Virus record (IMG/VR): IMGVR_UViG_3300048672_000430
Coordinates: 18,108 to 82,107 of that record
DNA: 64,000 nucleotides
Strand: one strand, 5' to 3'
DNA from: a virus
Below the pieces are notes generated by a model that saw only the letters and a list, made by a program, of their open reading frames with translations, was not told where the DNA came from and searched no databases. The stretch's first letter is position 1; every line of letters begins with the position of its first letter. Shown here one piece after another: positions 3,993 to 13,796 of the stretch. The position numbers were made by a program, and so were the translations under genes.

Positions 3993-4484
3993 CTATTTCC
4001 GTTTCTTCACCCACTCCATCGTTCTATCGTTCAGAGCATATACCGGCTGCACTAGATCCACTCCAACATAATACTGAGCAACAAAACCCTTAGCTTCATC
4101 CATGTTCTCAAAAACCCCAACAACGGTCTTATCCTTTCTAATATTCTCAATTACAACAAACACAGCAGGTATACTACAATTCACTAGGATCTTGGGTTTA
4201 TATTTTGAATAGCTAATTTTAGCCTTAACAACATCAAACCCGGCAGTAACATACTTCTCAACATAATACTGAGAGTAAATTTGTTTATATAACAACTCTT
4301 CTGTTTTTAATAAAATTTTTATATAAGATCGATCGCCCACTAATTCTGGAAAATCATCCAAAATTTGACCTATACGAGATTTTAGGTTATTTGCATATCC
4401 AACGTAGCATTTACTAGAAACAGGGTTAATAATGGCAAATACGCAACTATTAGGTAGACTATGGAGAGTATTGATGAAATTCAT
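3993..4484 (-). CDS. Degenerate GIY-YIG-like domain protein
   Basis: 163 residues. The N-terminus CVFAIIN...KCYVGYANNLKSRIGQ (about 14-39) has the shape of a GIY-YIG nuclease core, with VFA in place of GIY and YVG for YIG, followed by the expected Arg. The second half shows no recognised DNA-binding module. It may be a stand-alone homing or repair-type nuclease, or a catalytically dead relative. It is the first leftward gene after the central control region, with a late-type motif 42 bases upstream. Confidence 0.6.
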   Translation of the reverse strand: MNFINTLHSLPNSCVFAIINPVSSKCYVGYANNLKSRIGQILDDFPELVGDRSYIKILLKTEELLYKQIYSQYYVEKYVTAGFDVVKAKISYSKYKPKILVNCSIPAVFVVIENIRKDKTVVGVFENMDEAKGFVAQYYVGVDLVQPVYALNDRTMEWVKKRK

Positions 4485-4525
4485 TGTTGTTTTCCTCAGT
4501 AAAAATATAACATTACATTAGGTCG

Positions 4526-4543
4526 TTATGTATAGTTGTTCAG
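4526..4543 (-). promoter_or_regulatory. Late-type motif, variant copy 4
   Basis: CTGAACAACTATACATAA on the minus strand, differing from the consensus at the start and at the final G. It precedes the GIY-YIG-like gene; GAGG before ATG 4484 is the ribosome binding site. Confidence 0.45.
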
Positions 4544-4664
4544 TATTAGTGATTTCGATGAGGTGAGTAAAATAGGTGTGGTCGAGAATAGGTGTTTATA
4601 TACTTGAATTAGGTGGTATCACGGATGAGCTAACAAAGCCTTTCGTCCCGTCGGAAAGCCCATA

Positions 4665-4684
4665 GGGGGTAGGTAGGTGGGGGG
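4665..4684 (+). other. G-run tract with G-quadruplex potential
   Basis: GGGGGTAGGTAGGTGGGGGG on the plus strand: four G tracts of at least two bases with one- or two-base spacers in a genome where such runs are rare. It could fold as a two-layer quadruplex in single-stranded DNA or RNA. It lies next to the sigma54-like array. Confidence 0.5.
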
Positions 4685-4727
4685 TGTTTGATATGCCAAA
4701 CTTTTGTATGATGTTGCGAACTTAAGA

Positions 4728-4942
4728 TGGCACGGATCTTGCAGGGATATGCAAGTATCATGCCGGCACGGTAATTGCTATATATGCAAGAAGTATGCCA
4801 AGTGCTAAGTGTCCAATATTGTAGGAGTTCTGGGGTAAGTGGTTGATATGTGATGAAATTATTTGGTATTGATGTTGCTATATATGCAAGGGGCATGCCG
4901 AGGTTTACCCGGTTGAGGGCAATTTTTTGGCATCGATTTTGC
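4728..4942. promoter_or_regulatory. Array of seven sigma54-like -24/-12 elements in both orientations
   Basis: Plus-strand elements with GG-N10-GC spacing start at 4728 (TGGCACGGATCTTGCA), 4764, 4864 and 4928 (TGGCATCGATTTTGCA). Minus-strand elements have GG at 4764-4763, 4799-4798 and 4899-4898 (for example TTGGCATACTTCTTGCA). All keep GG-N10-GC exactly, and nearly all keep GGCAY and TTGC[AT], the RpoN promoter consensus. They form three convergent pairs whose -12 halves face each other across 7-8 bases (TATATAT in two). The 16-mer TTGCTATATATGCAAG occurs twice, exactly 100 bases apart. They may be promoters, sites that sequester host RpoN, or palindromic sites of another protein. Confidence 0.6.
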
Positions 4943-5099
4943 AATTAGACCTGCATCATTATATGCCCCAAAACCAGGAATTTTATTTTTATCCTTATAT
5001 ACAACGAAAATCTGTCATGCCTGAAAAATTTTTTTAGCGTCTTAACTCTATGTTATCGTTGGTGAATTTCAGATTTTTTAAATTATTTTTGAAGATCGC

Positions 5100-5128
5100 T
5101 TGCAATTATTTTTTAGATCGGTTAAGAT
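5100..5128 (+). promoter_or_regulatory. Sigma70-like promoter for first rightward gene
   Basis: TTGCAA, 17 bases, TAAGAT. It would give a leader of about 185 bases before the ATG at 5320. No better sigma70 match is seen between the control array and that gene. Confidence 0.45.
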
Positions 5129-5281
5129 TGTTTCAAGGCAAGCAACTAAGCTTGTCGGTAACGAGAGGTTAGAACATGGTAGCGGTGGTTGTAGTGATTT
5201 TTGTTTCATACTTTTTATTAGAAGTTGTTGGAATATAAAAAAAAGCTATAGGTTCCCGTTGTGGATAGTTTTTCAATATGT

Positions 5282-5299
5282 ACTTACATAGTTGTTAAA
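5282..5299 (-). promoter_or_regulatory. Late-type motif, variant copy 8
   Basis: TTTAACAACTATGTAAGT on the minus strand. The core AACAACTAT is kept but the TATATAG half is not. It points leftward into the control region, where no leftward gene begins for 800 bases, so it could drive a long untranslated RNA or be fortuitous. Confidence 0.35.
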
Positions 5300-5319
5300 T
5301 CAACTTTAAAGGAATTGTT

Positions 5320-5574
5320 ATGATAAAAAGTAAAGAGCAGATGAAATTTGAAGCTATGAAAAGAAAACAAGTACTTGAGGCGAAAAGTAAAAATAACGCC
5401 TTTAATAAGGCGGGGAATGTTAAGACAAGTTTTGGAAAATGTAATAAAGAGTATTTAATTAACATGGGATTTTATGTTAAAGGAGAAAGAAATAAACCGA
5501 GTAAATCGGCATGGGTAGAAAAAAGATTAGATAAAAATATAATTGAAGTTGACTTAAGAAAAAAGTCATGCTAA
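5320..5574 (+). CDS. Small basic early protein
   Basis: 84 residues with many Lys and Arg. The N-terminal 35 residues look like one amphipathic helix, and the second half contains GFYVKGERNKPSKSAWVEK. Start supported by AAAGGAA nine bases upstream. It is the first rightward gene, a place usually used for proteins that act at once on the host, and nucleic-acid binding would fit its charge. Its last bases carry the promoter of the following noncoding RNA. Confidence 0.7.
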   Translation: MIKSKEQMKFEAMKRKQVLEAKSKNNAFNKAGNVKTSFGKCNKEYLINMGFYVKGERNKPSKSAWVEKRLDKNIIEVDLRKKSC

Positions 5575-6976: not shown

Positions 6977-6983
6977 GGTGAAA

Positions 6984-8438
6984 ATGAACTTAGAATCATT
7001 TACTGTTAAGGGTACAATAATTCAAACAAATAAAGACTTATATGGTGGTGGATATGGTGGCACATATATTTATAAGATCGTAAAGAGTGCCAAATTAAAT
7101 CCAGATAAAACATTCCTAACTAATCAACCAATTCTTGTAAACGAAGACAACAGGCGAATATATCCTTATCTAACAAATTCTAGATTATTAGAATTAAATA
7201 TTAAAGAAATCAAATGTGAAAAAACAATAAAAGAATTTAATAAAATTTTAGTTGACTCGAAAAGGAAAAATGCCTTTAAAAATCTAACCAACGGTATTGT
7301 AGAAACTTTAGGAAGCGACCCTGAAATTTTTGTGGTAGATGAAAACGATAAAGTAATTCCTTCTTATGAATTTTTAAATGGTAAAGATAATCCAAATTTA
7401 ACAGGAACATACAAGGAATTTAAAATAAATGGTAATTGTGGTGCAAATGTAAATCAAAAAATGTTTTGGGACGGTTTCCAAGCTGAATTTAATACAGATG
7501 CTCAAAGTTGTTTAGCCTGGGTATGTGACTCGACTGTACTCGGTTTACAATCCGTTTTGAAAGAAGCAAAAAAGTATAATCCAAATGCAAGATTAACAAT
7601 TCAAACAACAGTAGACATTGATAAGAATGTTCTAGATAACGCTAAACCTGAACATGTAGAGTTCGGTTGTATGCCATCGTTTAACGTATATAATATGTCA
7701 GGAATCAAGGCAGATGGTAGGTCGGTATCATTTAGATCAGCAGGTGGACATATTCACTTCGGTATGAGTGACTTAACTAAAACGAAAGCTAAAAGATATG
7801 TAAAGGCACTAGATAAGATTCTAGGTGTTGCATGTGTTTCATTGTTTAATACTTACGACGACCCTAGAAGACGTACTATGTACGGATTAGCAGGTGAATA
7901 TAGATTACCTGCACACGGTTTAGAATATAGAACATTAAGTAATGCGTGGTTATCTCACCCGCTTATTATGAATCTAGTATTTGAAATGGCTAGAAAGGTA
8001 ATAGGTGCAGAAGAGGACGAACAAATGCAATTCTGGGATTCAACAGAAGAAGAAACTATTAGATGTATCAATACATGTGATGTTGATTTAGCTAGGGAGA
8101 TTTTAGCAAGAAATAAAACAAACCTGATTAATCTCTTAAAATCTATAAGTTCTATAAGTTATAATGAAAATGCTGAATATATCTATAAAATTTTAATGTT
8201 AGGTATGCAATCGATCATTGAAAATCCTGATGATATATCGGGTAATTGGTCATTCGAAAATCTTTATAAAGGTCATTGTGATGCAGACGGTATGCAACTT
8301 ATTACAATAGATAATATACCAAATTATAGATTATTAAAAGATGAGAAGGTTACTGCGATATATGAACAACTAGCATTTAATATTAAGCAATTAGATAATG
8401 ATGAGGAAACTATGACATTGAAAGAAGTTATGGGGTAG
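6984..8438 (+). CDS. COOH-NH2 ligase, phiEco32 type 2 (glutamine-synthetase fold)
   Basis: 484 residues. LGSDPEIFVVDE (about 108-119), FWDGFQAEFNT, GGHIHFG (about 253-259) and LEYRTLSNAW (about 313-322) are the conserved blocks of the phage carboxylate-amine ligase family first noted in phiEco32. Members are predicted to form amide bonds with ATP through a gamma-phosphoryl-type intermediate; substrates are unknown. GTG 6978 is in frame, but GAGGTG is better read as the ribosome binding site of ATG 6984. It stands upstream of a second ligase, an amidotransferase and an ATP-grasp enzyme on the same strand. Confidence 0.85.
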   Translation: MNLESFTVKGTIIQTNKDLYGGGYGGTYIYKIVKSAKLNPDKTFLTNQPILVNEDNRRIYPYLTNSRLLELNIKEIKCEKTIKEFNKILVDSKRKNAFKNLTNGIVETLGSDPEIFVVDENDKVIPSYEFLNGKDNPNLTGTYKEFKINGNCGANVNQKMFWDGFQAEFNTDAQSCLAWVCDSTVLGLQSVLKEAKKYNPNARLTIQTTVDIDKNVLDNAKPEHVEFGCMPSFNVYNMSGIKADGRSVSFRSAGGHIHFGMSDLTKTKAKRYVKALDKILGVACVSLFNTYDDPRRRTMYGLAGEYRLPAHGLEYRTLSNAWLSHPLIMNLVFEMARKVIGAEEDEQMQFWDSTEEETIRCINTCDVDLAREILARNKTNLINLLKSISSISYNENAEYIYKILMLGMQSIIENPDDISGNWSFENLYKGHCDADGMQLITIDNIPNYRLLKDEKVTAIYEQLAFNIKQLDNDEETMTLKEVMG

Positions 8439-8441
8439 GTC

Positions 8442-8681
8442 ATGAATGAACTAAAGATTTTAATTTCAAATAGTGCATTGGTTTTAAATTACTACGATAA
8501 GGAACTTAAGAAATCTGCTATAAGAAATAAAGGCTTATATGATGTAAGCGATGAAAATCTACATAAAGTTTGTAATGATGTATTTAGTATGGTGATAGGT
8601 AAACCAACAAATTTTAGTTGGACGGATTGCCAAGCAATATTTGACTTAATAGAGCGTGATTATGAAATAAAGGATAAGTAA
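8442..8681 (+). CDS. Hypothetical protein in ligase module
   Basis: 79 residues, helical, three bases after the first ligase gene. RBS AGG before ATG. No motif recognised. Confidence 0.6.
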   Translation: MNELKILISNSALVLNYYDKELKKSAIRNKGLYDVSDENLHKVCNDVFSMVIGKPTNFSWTDCQAIFDLIERDYEIKDK

Positions 8682-8918
8682 ATGAATAGATTAGAAATAG
8701 CAATGAAAATTCTTCAATGGGAAGGTGATGCAATCACTAAACATAGAAAGTTTGTTGATAACTTTATTAATGAAAATGAATTTAATGAAGTCTTAAAAGA
8801 AGCAGCATGTATAGAATTAGGTATTGAAGAAATCGAATTTGAAAGAATGAGCGATGAAGAATTTTTTAATGTAATGTTTGAATATTCTCATAACAATACA
8901 GTTATGGTAGCAAGCTAG
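8682..8918 (+). CDS. Hypothetical acidic helical protein
   Basis: 78 residues, acidic, with ELGIEEIEFERMSDEEFF in the second half. It begins at the base after the previous stop, so translation is coupled. No family recognised. Confidence 0.6.
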   Translation: MNRLEIAMKILQWEGDAITKHRKFVDNFINENEFNEVLKEAACIELGIEEIEFERMSDEEFFNVMFEYSHNNTVMVAS

Positions 8919-8924
8919 GTAATT

Positions 8925-9143
8925 ATGCAAATATTTAACGTGTCTGCTGAGGTTATAAAAAAACCTAAAAAATGTTCGCATTGTGATAAATTAAAAGAAA
9001 CAGGTTCAAGTATGTACTTCGGTCATACAATTCTATTCTCATTAAACAATAACAAAACTAAAGAGTTGCATTGGACATGTGAGGAATGTGTTAAAACAAA
9101 ACATGGGTACTTGACAGAATGTTATTGTATGGATTATTTATGA
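8925..9143 (+). CDS. Small Cys-rich zinc protein
   Basis: 72 residues with CSHC (17-20) and CEEC (52-55) pairs, and a further CYC near the end, probably one zinc knuckle. No further domain; possible nucleic-acid or protein adaptor. Confidence 0.6.
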   Translation: MQIFNVSAEVIKKPKKCSHCDKLKETGSSMYFGHTILFSLNNNKTKELHWTCEECVKTKHGYLTECYCMDYL

Positions 9144-9271
9144 AAAGGTTTATAACAGAACACCACGATTTTTTAGTTGTGTTGTTAATTATGGGATTAT
9201 TCGCAAAAGCCCTGTTATTAATTTTTAATATATTAGGATCATATACTATAAATGAATACTTTATGAGGTAA
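9140..9271 (+). CDS. Single-span membrane protein, 43 residues
   Basis: ATG overlaps the previous stop (ATGA). A hydrophobic helix spans about residues 11-31. No family. Confidence 0.55.
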   Translation: MKRFITEHHDFLVVLLIMGLFAKALLLIFNILGSYTINEYFMR

Positions 9272-9274
9272 ATT

Positions 9275-9565
9275 ATGCACGCATTTGTAGAAGACATACT
9301 ACAATTCACTTTAAACAATAAGAAGCATCAACATTTTCAAGAAAAGGAAACAAGATATTCATTCGTTATATGTAATAGGAATATATATGCTCACGATAGT
9401 AGTGTGACATTACACAATGGTAAAACGGATATACATAGGAATTTTGATAGATTTAATGTGATTAAATCACCTCATAGATTACAGCCTATTTTTTTAAGTC
9501 GAGAAACTATGAGAGATTCTTATAAAAATAGACCATTTAGTGATTTGGTAAAAATAGTGGAGTAG
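9275..9565 (+). CDS. Hypothetical protein
   Basis: 96 residues, mixed helix and strand, basic overall, with RYSFVICNRNIYAH in the middle. That strand pattern resembles the mini-protein family near the ATP-grasp gene, but similarity is weak. RBS GAGG. Confidence 0.6.
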   Translation: MHAFVEDILQFTLNNKKHQHFQEKETRYSFVICNRNIYAHDSSVTLHNGKTDIHRNFDRFNVIKSPHRLQPIFLSRETMRDSYKNRPFSDLVKIVE

Positions 9566-9568
9566 TAA

Positions 9569-9745
9569 ATGGAAAAAATAAAACATATTTATTCAAAAGA
9601 ATTAGGTCAATTATTTATGAGAATGACCGACGAAGAATATTTCGATTGGTTGAAAACAAACGAAGTAGAATATACTAAACCATTATTGGAATTAATAAAT
9701 GAAGATAAGGCTAATCTAAGTGATGAAGATTATACAGATACATAG
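9569..9745 (+). CDS. Small acidic protein
   Basis: 58 residues; the middle MTDEEYFDWLKTNE and the C-terminus SDEDYTDT are acidic. Start three bases after the previous stop. No family. Confidence 0.55.
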   Translation: MEKIKHIYSKELGQLFMRMTDEEYFDWLKTNEVEYTKPLLELINEDKANLSDEDYTDT

Positions 9746-9754
9746 GGGAACATC

Positions 9755-9919
9755 ATGATAATAATACAATGCGATAACGATTTATGTGAAGCCGGAAATG
9801 AATGGTCTGAACATATTAATTATCGATTTAGTAATGATTATATAGATTACGATGATTTCTTAAATAATGTTTCAAATGAAGAAGAATATAGAATAATATG
9901 GGAGGATACAAATGATTAA
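9755..9919 (+). CDS. Small acidic protein upstream of amidoligase
   Basis: 54 residues starting MIIIQC, like the MxIxQ start of the mini-protein family, and with HINYRFSND. Overlaps the amidoligase start by eight bases. RBS AGGGGAA. Confidence 0.55.
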   Translation: MIIIQCDNDLCEAGNEWSEHINYRFSNDYIDYDDFLNNVSNEEEYRIIWEDTND

Positions 9920-11312
9920 TGTTGGATCAATAATAAAAATTAATGATGAACTTTGTCCAGAAAATGAACGCTCTAATAAAAGATTTCAATTCGGTGCTTT
10001 AAATTATATCGCAATTATGTTGGATTGGGAGTTTGAGGTAGTACGAGAATTTAAAGATGAGTTTCATGGTGACATGGTAGAATGTAAAATTACCAATAGT
10101 GATAATATCAAGTCAAACATTGTTCTTAGAACACAAGATACAGTGTTAGCTAAGTCAAATAAATTCAATTTAACTTATGAGATTATCGGTAAAACAGGAA
10201 GGTTTGATGCTGAGATAAGAGAACTCAAGAGAGAAGAAAATGATCTACTCTTAGTTCGTGCGGAAGAAAAAAGAAAAGGCACACCGATCACTGATAAAAC
10301 ACTTATTCAAAATTGGTCAGAAGTTAAATCAGTTAGAAATAAGATCAAGCGTTATCAAGAAAATACTGATAAAGTTTTTGTTGTCAAACATTCGTCTGGT
10401 ACTTACGAGATTGATTGTGCTGAGGAACAAATTCCAACAAAGCTTAGATCTTTAATTAGAAGTATGCGTGCTGATAGACGCAAAGTTTACCCTGTCACAA
10501 AAGAAATTGGTGGCGGTATGACATTAGAGAAATTAGGTAATGTCATGGTTAAACCTGGTAAGTTCCTGGAATTAAATGAGAAGTATGCTTTGAATATTAT
10601 TAAGGCACATAAGAAACCTACAACAAACGATAACTATGTTGGTATTGAAATTGAGATGTTATCACCTAAAAGTATTGAAGAAATGAATAAAGAGTTTATT
10701 AAGTCAAGATTACATAAGTATGTGAATGTTGGTACAGATGGTTCAATTAGAAGTGACATTAGTGGTGTTCATGCTATGGAATTGAGGGTATGTTTACCTG
10801 AAAACTTATTAGCTACTCATTTAAAAATGATTACAGAAGTATTACGTAAAACAGACTCTTATGCAAATCGTTCATGTGGTATGCACGTTCACGTTGATAT
10901 GAGAAATCGTGACCCTGAGCTATGTTACAGAAACTTCTTTAAAGTTCAAAATATTATGCTACAAGCTCAACCATTAACTAGACGTACAAACCAATACTGC
11001 AAACCTAGTACGATAGCTAGCAAAAAATTAAAAGACTTCTCAAGTAATGGTGATGATAACGTGAGACGACAAGCAATTAATACTGACTCGTATCATAAAA
11101 ACGATATGAAGACTATTGAGATCAGAGTACACGAAGGTGCTACTAAGTTCAAAGATATATTTAATTGGGTAAATTTCTTAGTTGCGACCGCTTCCCTTAA
11201 AAAAGATTTGGACGCACCTATTAATACTATTAAAGAATTAAGATCTGCTAATTTCGTAAATGAATTAGTAATTAATCATTTAAATGAACGTATTGAAGAG
11301 TATTCGGCTTAA
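9912..11312 (+). CDS. Putative amidoligase (second COOH-NH2 ligase)
   Basis: 466 residues. The C-terminal half has the amidoligase signature: VGIEIEML (about 242-249), GTDGSI, MELRVCLP, CGMHVHVD (about 321-328) and IEIRVHEG (about 401-408), the acidic and histidine positions that bind magnesium-ATP in this glutamine-synthetase-like fold. The N-terminal 240 residues, with a charged coiled region (about 98-155), are unassigned and may recognise the substrate. Members are predicted to attach amines or peptides to carboxylates. RBS GGGAGG. Confidence 0.85.
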   Translation: MINVGSIIKINDELCPENERSNKRFQFGALNYIAIMLDWEFEVVREFKDEFHGDMVECKITNSDNIKSNIVLRTQDTVLAKSNKFNLTYEIIGKTGRFDAEIRELKREENDLLLVRAEEKRKGTPITDKTLIQNWSEVKSVRNKIKRYQENTDKVFVVKHSSGTYEIDCAEEQIPTKLRSLIRSMRADRRKVYPVTKEIGGGMTLEKLGNVMVKPGKFLELNEKYALNIIKAHKKPTTNDNYVGIEIEMLSPKSIEEMNKEFIKSRLHKYVNVGTDGSIRSDISGVHAMELRVCLPENLLATHLKMITEVLRKTDSYANRSCGMHVHVDMRNRDPELCYRNFFKVQNIMLQAQPLTRRTNQYCKPSTIASKKLKDFSSNGDDNVRRQAINTDSYHKNDMKTIEIRVHEGATKFKDIFNWVNFLVATASLKKDLDAPINTIKELRSANFVNELVINHLNERIEEYSA

Positions 11313-11340
11313 TTATAATAAAACTAATATGAGGTAAAAA

Positions 11341-12558
11341 ATGTGTAAAGTTATGGTAATGACCGGGATAGAAAATAATGATCTAGCCCTGAGATTTATG
11401 AAAGCAGTAGCACCCAACATGTCAGTAGGTAATACCGACGGCATTGGGTACTCCGCAGTAAATTCTAAGAATCAACTGTTCATGGAAAAATGGCACGTTA
11501 ATAATAAGTTCTTAAATACGAACGATGTTGTAGACGCTAAGACTATTGAGGAATTAAAACCTTATGAGAATAGGATAGGTAAACTCCAATTAAATTACAC
11601 AAGTTATGGTGATGTAACAAGAGACGATCTTAGATCAGTGACTATGCACACCAGGTACGCAACATGTGGAAAAACATTTGAGAATACTCACCCATTTATT
11701 GAAAATGATATATCCCTTATTCATAATGGTGTTATTCAAAATTCTTTTACATTAGCATTAAATAAAAATTCAACTTGTGACTCCGAAAACGCTTTACAAT
11801 TATACAATAACTTACAAGTTAATTTGAGTAAGAAAAGTACAGACTATCAAAGTTTCCTAGATAAGTTAAAGGGTTATTGGGCATTTGCTTTTCTTGCAAA
11901 AGATTCTGAAGGTACATATCAACTAGATGTTGTTCGTGAGGGTGCACCATTATACTTTGCAAAGATTGAAGAAATCGGAGTTAATTGTGTTGTGTTTGCA
12001 ACAACAAAAGAAATCATCGAGATAGGTTGTAAAGAATTAGAGTTACCAGTTAGATCACAGATCTATCTACTAACTGAGTCTAACTATCACAGATTTAACG
12101 CATTAACAGGCGAGTTAATACTTAATAAACAACTCGAAGATTCTTTATTAAATGCTTCATCGTATAGCTATTCAAAAGTATTTAAATCAAATAAGACAAA
12201 GAAAAAAGAACCTTATCAACCACTAAATAATAACAACATAGATGAATACTATGACTACTACAATAGTCAAGAAAATTACAAGGATCTTACATCAGTAACC
12301 GATGAGTTCTTATTAGATTCGTTCTATGATATTAATGAGCCTTTAGTTGATAGACTTGATTCTTATGATAAAATGTTCGACACTGAGTATTTATCTAACT
12401 TTGAAGATCTAGCTATTAAAATCCGTGACTTCATAACAAAACAAGAATATAAAGAAGTTATTAGTTTTGCCGAAATTATCTTAATGTTAGACGCTTATAT
12501 TGCAAGTGAAAATATATCAGACCTTTATAAAGTATTTAGAAATAAACGTAGGGCTTAA
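11341..12558 (+). CDS. Class II glutamine amidotransferase with C-terminal extension
   Basis: 405 residues. The sequence MCKVMVMTG places Cys2 to become the N-terminal nucleophile after methionine removal. HTRYATCG (about 102-109), THPF and HNGVI (about 128-132) are the glutaminase signatures of GlmS/PurF/AsnB relatives. The domain should end near residue 250; the last 150 residues are unassigned and rich in Tyr, Asp and Asn (about 290-325). It would release ammonia from glutamine for one of the neighbouring ligases. RBS GAGG. Confidence 0.85.
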   Translation: MCKVMVMTGIENNDLALRFMKAVAPNMSVGNTDGIGYSAVNSKNQLFMEKWHVNNKFLNTNDVVDAKTIEELKPYENRIGKLQLNYTSYGDVTRDDLRSVTMHTRYATCGKTFENTHPFIENDISLIHNGVIQNSFTLALNKNSTCDSENALQLYNNLQVNLSKKSTDYQSFLDKLKGYWAFAFLAKDSEGTYQLDVVREGAPLYFAKIEEIGVNCVVFATTKEIIEIGCKELELPVRSQIYLLTESNYHRFNALTGELILNKQLEDSLLNASSYSYSKVFKSNKTKKKEPYQPLNNNNIDEYYDYYNSQENYKDLTSVTDEFLLDSFYDINEPLVDRLDSYDKMFDTEYLSNFEDLAIKIRDFITKQEYKEVISFAEIILMLDAYIASENISDLYKVFRNKRRA

Positions 12559-12561
12559 TTT

Positions 12562-12702
12562 ATGGACATAATACAATACAAATCAAGATACTATTGGTTT
12601 AGATTTAGAGAAAATCGCATTAACTTTTATTACTCTTCGGAAACCTTAATAGAAAGCGGAGGTAATGACCTTCCTTATTGTGTAATTAAAAACCTGGATT
12701 AA
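12562..12702 (+). CDS. Mini-protein of the Y-x-FRFR family, copy 1
   Basis: 46 residues: MDIIQY, then YWFRFRENRINFYYS, an SGGN turn and the C-terminus VIKNLD. The pattern recurs in the next gene and more loosely in several others. Predicted as a small all-beta protein. It lies between the amidotransferase and the ATP-grasp gene. Confidence 0.65.
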   Translation: MDIIQYKSRYYWFRFRENRINFYYSSETLIESGGNDLPYCVIKNLD

Positions 12703-12715
12703 TTTGGAGGTATAA

Positions 12716-12874
12716 ATGTATGACGTAGAATTGATACAGTATACTGAAAAAAGAACATTTTATTTTAGATTTCGTATTGATAATGTAAACTTTTATTGGA
12801 ATAAAAACTTTTCATCGATTATTAAATCCGGTGGAAATTACATTCCTCATAACATAATTAAAATAATAGATTAA
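12716..12874 (+). CDS. Mini-protein of the Y-x-FRFR family, copy 2
   Basis: 52 residues, clearly a paralogue of the preceding protein: IQYTEKRTFYFRFRIDNVNFYW, SGGNYIPHNIIKIID. RBS GGAGG. The shared aromatic strand, the SGGN turn and the hydrophobic-acidic end suggest one fold. Confidence 0.7.
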   Translation: MYDVELIQYTEKRTFYFRFRIDNVNFYWNKNFSSIIKSGGNYIPHNIIKIID

Positions 12875-12885
12875 CGGGAGAAGTT

Positions 12886-13044
12886 ATGTTGCTCACTCAA
12901 TATAATAAATTTATCAGTCCGTCTCTTAGATATATTTTTCGACTATCTTCAGATGGTTATATATATAACAATAATGGAAGATTACATGGATCGACTATCC
13001 CTGATGATGATAAACTATATCAAATAATAATGGAGAGAATATGA
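12886..13044 (+). CDS. Mini-protein of the Y-x-FRFR family, divergent copy 3
   Basis: 52 residues: LTQY, then LRYIFRLSSDGYIYNNN, ending IIMERI. Less similar than the two before it but of the same size and order of segments. Its stop overlaps the ATP-grasp start (ATGA). Confidence 0.6.
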   Translation: MLLTQYNKFISPSLRYIFRLSSDGYIYNNNGRLHGSTIPDDDKLYQIIMERI

Positions 13045-13796
13045 AATTCACAATACTATATAGTGGTCGTTCTTCTAAAACAGGAAGGGATTTATTAAAT
13101 AAATTCAAGCCTTTATCTAGAAAGGCATTTAGAAAACGAACAGAAAAACGATTCAATACTGATGTTATTTTAAGATGGGGGTCAACTGAGACTTTCAATA
13201 AGTTAAGAGGTAGGCTAGAACTAAACACTTTAGAAGCTGTCAGAAATGCAAGCAATAAGTTAATCATGATGCAAAAATTAGTTGAGGCTAATATTCCAAC
13301 CGCAGAAATTCTTTTCAATCCTTATAATCAATCTCAAGATGTTATAGACAATTATCGTGATGATAATGGTGGATTTTTTATCAGAGGTTCAAACGATTCA
13401 ATAAGATATGACGATAGTATTAATCCTAATGACAAGTATATATCTAAACCAATTGTAAATAAGCGTAGAGAATATAGAGTCCACGTATTCAATGGTGAAG
13501 TTATAGCTATCTATGAGAAAATTCCTAACGATGAGAATGTTAAGTTATTCAAATCATATAACTGTCATTTCGAATTAAAGAATATAGAAAATTGTAGGCT
13601 AACCGAACAAGATAAACAAGTTTGTATAGATGCTGTAAATAAATTAGGATTACTATTTGGTGGTGTAGATTTAATGCGAGATAAGAATAAGAAAGTCTTT
13701 GTTTCGGAAGTAAATAGTGCCCCGGCTTTAAATGGAACTAACATAGATAGATATGTAACCAAAATAAACGAGTACATTCAAGCGATGGGAGTTTAA
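13041..13796 (+). CDS. ATP-grasp ligase (RimK-like, phage type)
   Basis: 251 residues. The blocks FFIRGSND, REYRVHVFNGE (about 143-153), GVDLM (about 207-211) and EVNSAPAL (about 222-229) are those of the ATP-grasp fold, with the Glu and Asn that hold magnesium. The N-terminal VILRWG matches the phiEco32-type subgroup. It should ligate an amine or peptide to a carboxylate by an acyl-phosphate. Its four-base overlap with the mini-protein before it links the two. Confidence 0.85.
   Translation: MKFTILYSGRSSKTGRDLLNKFKPLSRKAFRKRTEKRFNTDVILRWGSTETFNKLRGRLELNTLEAVRNASNKLIMMQKLVEANIPTAEILFNPYNQSQDVIDNYRDDNGGFFIRGSNDSIRYDDSINPNDKYISKPIVNKRREYRVHVFNGEVIAIYEKIPNDENVKLFKSYNCHFELKNIENCRLTEQDKQVCIDAVNKLGLLFGGVDLMRDKNKKVFVSEVNSAPALNGTNIDRYVTKINEYIQAMGV

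Follow-up and report, generated by a model that had tools for sequence, protein, structure and literature searches.

Dense non-coding arrays of sigma54 sites may have arisen independently in many unrelated phages, where they would soak up the RpoN holoenzyme of the host during infection and switch off its whole alternative-sigma regulon by DNA alone, without any phage protein. We assign this reading a probability of roughly 0.45. One such array is present in the window, the 64,000-bp stretch of DNA analyzed here, which is part of an 82,107-bp IMG/VR virus record, and arrays of the same kind recur among the viral contigs of this collection. No report of phage sigma54 arrays was found among open-licence papers, an absence which carries little weight.

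Layout of the array and identity of its elements

The array at positions 4728–4943 consists of seven elements, four pointing rightward and three leftward, which form three facing pairs and leave one element unpaired (Table 1). Everything that the sequence-only reading had described at this level was found again, namely the exact GG-N10-GC core in all seven elements, the perfect TGGCACG-N4-TTGCA element at its left end, the distribution over the two strands, the three pairs facing each other across 7–8 bases (TTGC/GCAA gaps of 8, 7 and 7) and the repeated 16-mer TTGCTATATATGCAAG, which has exact copies at 4775 and 4875, 100 bases apart. Outside the array, the 64-kb window contains a single further match to GGYAY-N5-TTGCW (16419, minus strand), and a scan of the intergenic region for element spacings other than N5 yielded no match. 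First-order Markov simulation of the window (200 sequences) gave a mean of 0.6 elements per 64 kb (maximum 3), compared with the eight observed, and never more than one within 215 bp, compared with the seven of the array.

Table 1. Array elements, facing pairs and surrounding features in the window (scores in bits from the Salmonella sigma54 matrix)
Feature	Position	Strand	Start of GGYAY-N5-TTGCW match	Score or remark
Intergenic region with the array, between divergent gene blocks	4485–5319			835 bp
G-run adjoining the array	4679–4684	+		one of three runs of at least six G/C in the window
Sigma54-type element TGGCACGGATCTTGCA, perfect consensus TGGCACG-N4-TTGCA	4728–4743	+	4729	19.9
Sigma54-type element CGGCATGATACTTGCA	4750–4765	-	4750	13.7
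Sigma54-type element CGGCACGGTAATTGCT	4764–4779	+	4765	13.5
Sigma54-type element TGGCATACTTCTTGCA	4785–4800	-	4785	18.7
Sigma54-type element TGGTATTGATGTTGCT, weakest, GGTAT	4864–4879	+	4865	absent from the matrix matches listed above 9 bits
Sigma54-type element CGGCATGCCCCTTGCA	4885–4900	-	4885	11.8
Sigma54-type element TGGCATCGATTTTGCA, unpaired	4928–4943	+	4929	15.6
Facing pair 1, TTGC-N8-GCAA	4728–4765			
Facing pair 2, TTGC-N7-GCAA	4764–4800			two-base overlap with pair 1
Facing pair 3, TTGC-N7-GCAA	4864–4900			TTGCTATATATGCAAG in common with pair 2

The divergent gene blocks on both sides of the array are as previously proposed; their naming as early and late rests on gene content only. 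The leftward block starts at 4484 with a GIY-YIG-like gene, followed by an M15 endolysin and the terminase, and the rightward block, starting at 5320, comprises amidoligases, a class II ribonucleotide reductase, a helicase and a DNA polymerase. An open frame without family match (4630–4944, minus strand) overlaps the array. At 6978–13796, two genes of amidoligase type are closely grouped with one resembling glutamine amidotransferases and another resembling ATP-grasp proteins, an arrangement reminiscent of a peptide- or cell-wall-modifying pathway.

It is very likely, as far as can be judged from the DNA, that the elements are recognized by sigma54, and spacing, matrix scores and the conservation of the core in homologous arrays strongly support the initial assignment. 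A matrix made from 29 Salmonella sites (PMC3844500) placed the array elements at ranks 1, 2, 3, 5, 7 and 9 among all positions of the window, with scores of 19.9, 18.7 and, for the others, 11.8–15.6 bits. Viral array elements reached a median score of 19.0 bits, compared with 17.7 bits for ChIP-supported Salmonella sigma54 sites. Because sigma54-like patterns were used to find the array loci, their core letters are partly given by selection; evidence less dependent on this choice comes from the controls with shortened spacing, from the side positions and from conservation in the alignment. Side positions that were free in the search agree with sigma54 sites, with T before GG in 89%, Y before that, R after GGCAY and W after TTGC.

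In an alignment of 15 homologous arrays, each of which served in turn as the reference whose elements were named by pattern, identity amounted to 96% in the GGCA/TGC core, 86% at near-core positions, 76% in the in-element spacer, 78% in the gaps and 75% in the flanks. Pair gaps vary by single-base indels while GG-N10-GC is constant, one array is without a whole pair, and end elements switch orientation. Homologous arrays of other phage lineages thus keep the GG/TGC core while surroundings, pair gap and orientation vary, and the check proposed by the sequence-only reading, whether the array is kept while the bases around it change, speaks for sigma54. Outside the core, the complementarity of facing arms is no higher than chance, and at two spacer positions it is even below chance (0.16 and 0.11 compared with 0.31 and 0.30). 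A hairpin reading was rejected. Since the spacing is fixed, gap, orientation and copy number are variable and facing arms show complementarity in the core only, the conserved unit is the single element on double-stranded DNA.

A search of 30 array-bearing records, some of which are fragments, detected neither the DNA-binding domain of sigma54 nor a domain of its activators; host activators and enhancer sites share no motif. A phage-encoded sigma54-like protein is thus rejected for the records tested, and the factor would be that of the host.

Occurrence in viral contigs, cellular genomes and cultured phages

IMG/VR viral contigs were scanned with facing-pair and tandem-pair patterns, and the resulting frequencies are lower bounds. 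Among the matches listed for the facing-pair pattern, many contigs exhibited three palindromes 46–57 bp apart, and in more than half of the loci 4–10 elements were grouped around the pair, at distances of up to about 300 bp; a control shortened by one base (GG-N9-GC) gave 17 viral matches, none of which was clustered. The tandem pattern, which does not require a palindrome, revealed clusters of up to 20 elements among the matches listed, and its control with the same shortening (GG-N9-GC) gave no match in the whole collection. Facing pairs in other viruses prefer a narrow gap of 1–5 bases, and tandem elements are 25–30 bases apart. At least 124 loci with four or more elements each (up to 20) fall into 19 groups by any shared protein or 36 groups by two shared proteins, numbers that are rough bounds as the loci are short pieces. 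Their GC content ranges from 31 to 63%, and the gene calls on these contigs are simple ORF calls. The largest arrays comprise 20 elements in about 790 bp (L375, 5660–6445) and 14 elements in about 620 bp (L356, 6921–7544). A single element, TGGCACGTTTCTTGCT in L011, was treated as chance.

In cellular genomes (257 Gb), the facing-pair pattern never had more than three elements nearby among the matches listed, and no tandem pair occurred in 369 cellular genomes that belong to one class and were chosen around a Halomonas genome. Many matches to the facing-pair pattern were seen in genomes of the actinobacterial genus Prauserella (L148–L151, L155, L158, L161 and others), where they apparently belong to a palindromic repeat that is dispersed in these genomes and has nothing to do with sigma54.

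Vibrio phage VpV262 is a cultured example; its six elements (173–346; 16.8–18.4 bits with the Salmonella matrix) adjoin the terminal repeat and precede ORF1 by about 690 bp. Two T5-like phages fit more loosely: Vibrio phage VCPH contains five elements in a 1.3-kb non-coding stretch upstream of A2–A3, and Pseudomonas phage SYP contains three within 190 bp and three more near one end. Two pairs are present in pVp-1. DNA similarity led to VpV262 and the T5-like cases, which were scored afterwards; BLASTN with natural arrays returned VpV262 only, at E = 8, or nothing, and a query assembled from typical elements returned SYP and VCPH, the remaining rows being short and at E of about 8. Both Vibrio and Pseudomonas have RpoN. 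A gene labelled ‘postulated decoy protein’ (L428, 3992–4396) lies about 1.3 kb from the sigma54 elements of SYP. No clusters were found in sixteen further phages, mostly Zobellviridae, or in the stretches examined of Caulobacter phage RW, ctpbd312, Alteromonas R9Y3 and Vibrio 1.157.O.

The conservation observed in other lineages does not extend to the window phage's own relatives. G004 and G005, with terminases of 55–57% identity, have the homologous gap, which is rich in GTGTGCGT and contains a G-run but no GGYAY-N5-TTGCW-type elements, and G003 has one isolated element match. The contig of G001 (terminase 85% identical) breaks off before the array region, about 170 bp upstream of the GIY-YIG-like gene. 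None of the terminase relatives G001–G005 exhibits an array in the sequence available; the same holds for the amidoligase relatives L419–L427, and a BLASTN search of phages with the window gap gave no match. In the array's place, the homologous gap of relatives holds low-complexity sequence rich in GTGTGCGT (L021, 5550–5740; L022, 5030–5190). As the gap-bearing relatives are without it, the array is not an old trait of the window phage's lineage, and its absence in the relatives and in most Zobellviridae tested shows that it is dispensable.

A proposed decoy for RpoN and competing explanations

Of the three roles offered by the sequence-only reading, the decoy fits best, and we infer from the DNA, at about even odds, that the array holds host RpoN holoenzyme in inactive closed complexes. 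Host RNA polymerase–sigma54 would bind the elements and remain closed, because no activator is supplied and because facing elements lie in each other's path. Replication of the phage genome would multiply the seven to ten sites per genome to hundreds or more, a number that would outnumber host sigma54, and RpoN-dependent genes (flagella, pili, nitrogen or phage-shock genes) would be starved. An E. coli cell contains about a hundred sigma54 molecules. Sigma54 holoenzyme forms a stable closed complex which does not open without an activator (PMC3844500), so that unactivated sites would be natural holding places.

A binding role fits better than seven promoters with the use of both directions, the crowding, the changes of orientation and copy number between homologues and the lack of a clear gene-start preference. 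The clean spacing controls, the absence of clusters among the cellular matches listed and the distance of the VpV262 array from the first gene likewise speak for a decoy. On the other hand, a single incoming genome has too few sites to titrate, and an effect would follow replication; facing pairs can probably not both be filled, which would waste sites if capacity is the aim; most arrays occupy the space between divergent gene starts, which is where promoters are expected; and the array is dispensable, as the relatives without it show. What a phage would gain, for example a blunted sigma54-dependent phage-shock response or an effect on flagellar or pilus genes, is speculation.

The arrays share the GG-N10-GC core, the TGGCAYR-N4-TTGCW consensus and the matrix scores with sigma54 -24/-12 promoters, which, however, normally occur once per promoter and towards a gene, whereas 4–20 elements are crowded in both directions in the phage arrays. 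The datA locus of E. coli, a chromosomal titration locus for DnaA, likewise gathers, in non-coding DNA, sites for a host factor whose free level could depend on the dose of these sites, but titration is proven for datA and proposed for the phage arrays. Like a sponge or titration locus, the arrays bring multiple strong sites (seven in the window, 4–20 elsewhere) onto a multicopy element, the phage genome. Synthetic DNA sponges, such as tetO arrays or arrays of 10–40 copies of the sigma-factor promoter Pecf11, which act as sponges in E. coli, also carry many regulator or sigma-factor sites on a replicating element (PMC7686491); the phage arrays differ in being natural, in having diverged copies and in being aimed at host sigma54, with titration as a proposal only. 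Sigma54 bound in transcriptionally inactive holoenzyme, as proposed for the arrays, is known from E. coli sites which, unlike the clustered phage sites, are single, scattered and mostly inside genes (PMC4591121).

It is unlikely that the arrays are working multi-copy sigma54 promoters that use a host enhancer-binding protein, drive the divergent blocks and couple phage expression to the nutrient or stress state of the host. By matrix the elements do resemble excellent promoters, most arrays lie between divergent genes, some tandem arrays point all one way, and the window gap contains only two weak sigma70-like sites, fewer than shuffled sequence. Yet seven to twenty promoters would stand at one spot, facing within 1–5 bases, and end elements change direction between homologues. 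In one-directional contexts, 64 elements point towards and 50 away from gene starts, by a hand tally on crude gene calls; moreover, the VpV262 array is remote from any gene, and the 30 records are without an activator gene.

Slightly less probable is a role of the array, or of holoenzyme bound to it, for the phage DNA itself, as roadblock or insulator between the divergent blocks, as guard of a genome end or as part of a replication origin. The positions beside the VpV262 terminal repeat and upstream of A2–A3 in VCPH would suit such a role, as would the tandem spacing of 25–30 bases, which is close to one closed-complex footprint. Within 300 bp of arrays, DnaA boxes show a 23- to 27-fold enrichment (16 loci), but they occur in two of the 36 groups only and not near the window array, and the roughly sixfold enrichment of G-runs near arrays (23 of 36 groups) may reflect non-coding sequence generally.

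The DnaA boxes (TTATMCACA), often in tandem 11 bases apart, were seen in L129, L141, L102, L103, L352, L385, L328, L396, L128, L143, L079 and others, and also in L429; array-linked boxes are known from these two groups plus VCPH and could mark either an origin or the titration of a second host factor. Runs of at least six G or C adjoin arrays in the window (4668–4690), in L099 (near 7807) and in VpV262 (near 160), and the G001 contig breaks at such a run; they are possibly a genome-end or assembly signal.

Palindromic operators for another dimeric regulator, phage- or host-encoded, which the sequence-only reading had also offered, are now very improbable: three near-palindromes in the window and the narrow gap of facing pairs in other viruses would fit, but neither fixed dyad spacing nor obligate pairing is found, as homologues differ by single bases in the gap but not in the in-element spacing, unpaired elements occur and tandem arrays without palindromes are common, arm complementarity outside the core is at or below chance, and the match extends to sigma54-specific side positions.

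Phages disarm host sigma factors with proteins. If the decoy reading is true, the recurrent use of DNA to trap RpoN in different phage lineages would represent a new mode of host takeover and would indicate which RpoN functions hurt phages. The cultured phage–host pairs of VpV262, VCPH and SYP make this idea testable, and for phages known only from metagenomes the array motif would hint at RpoN-bearing hosts.
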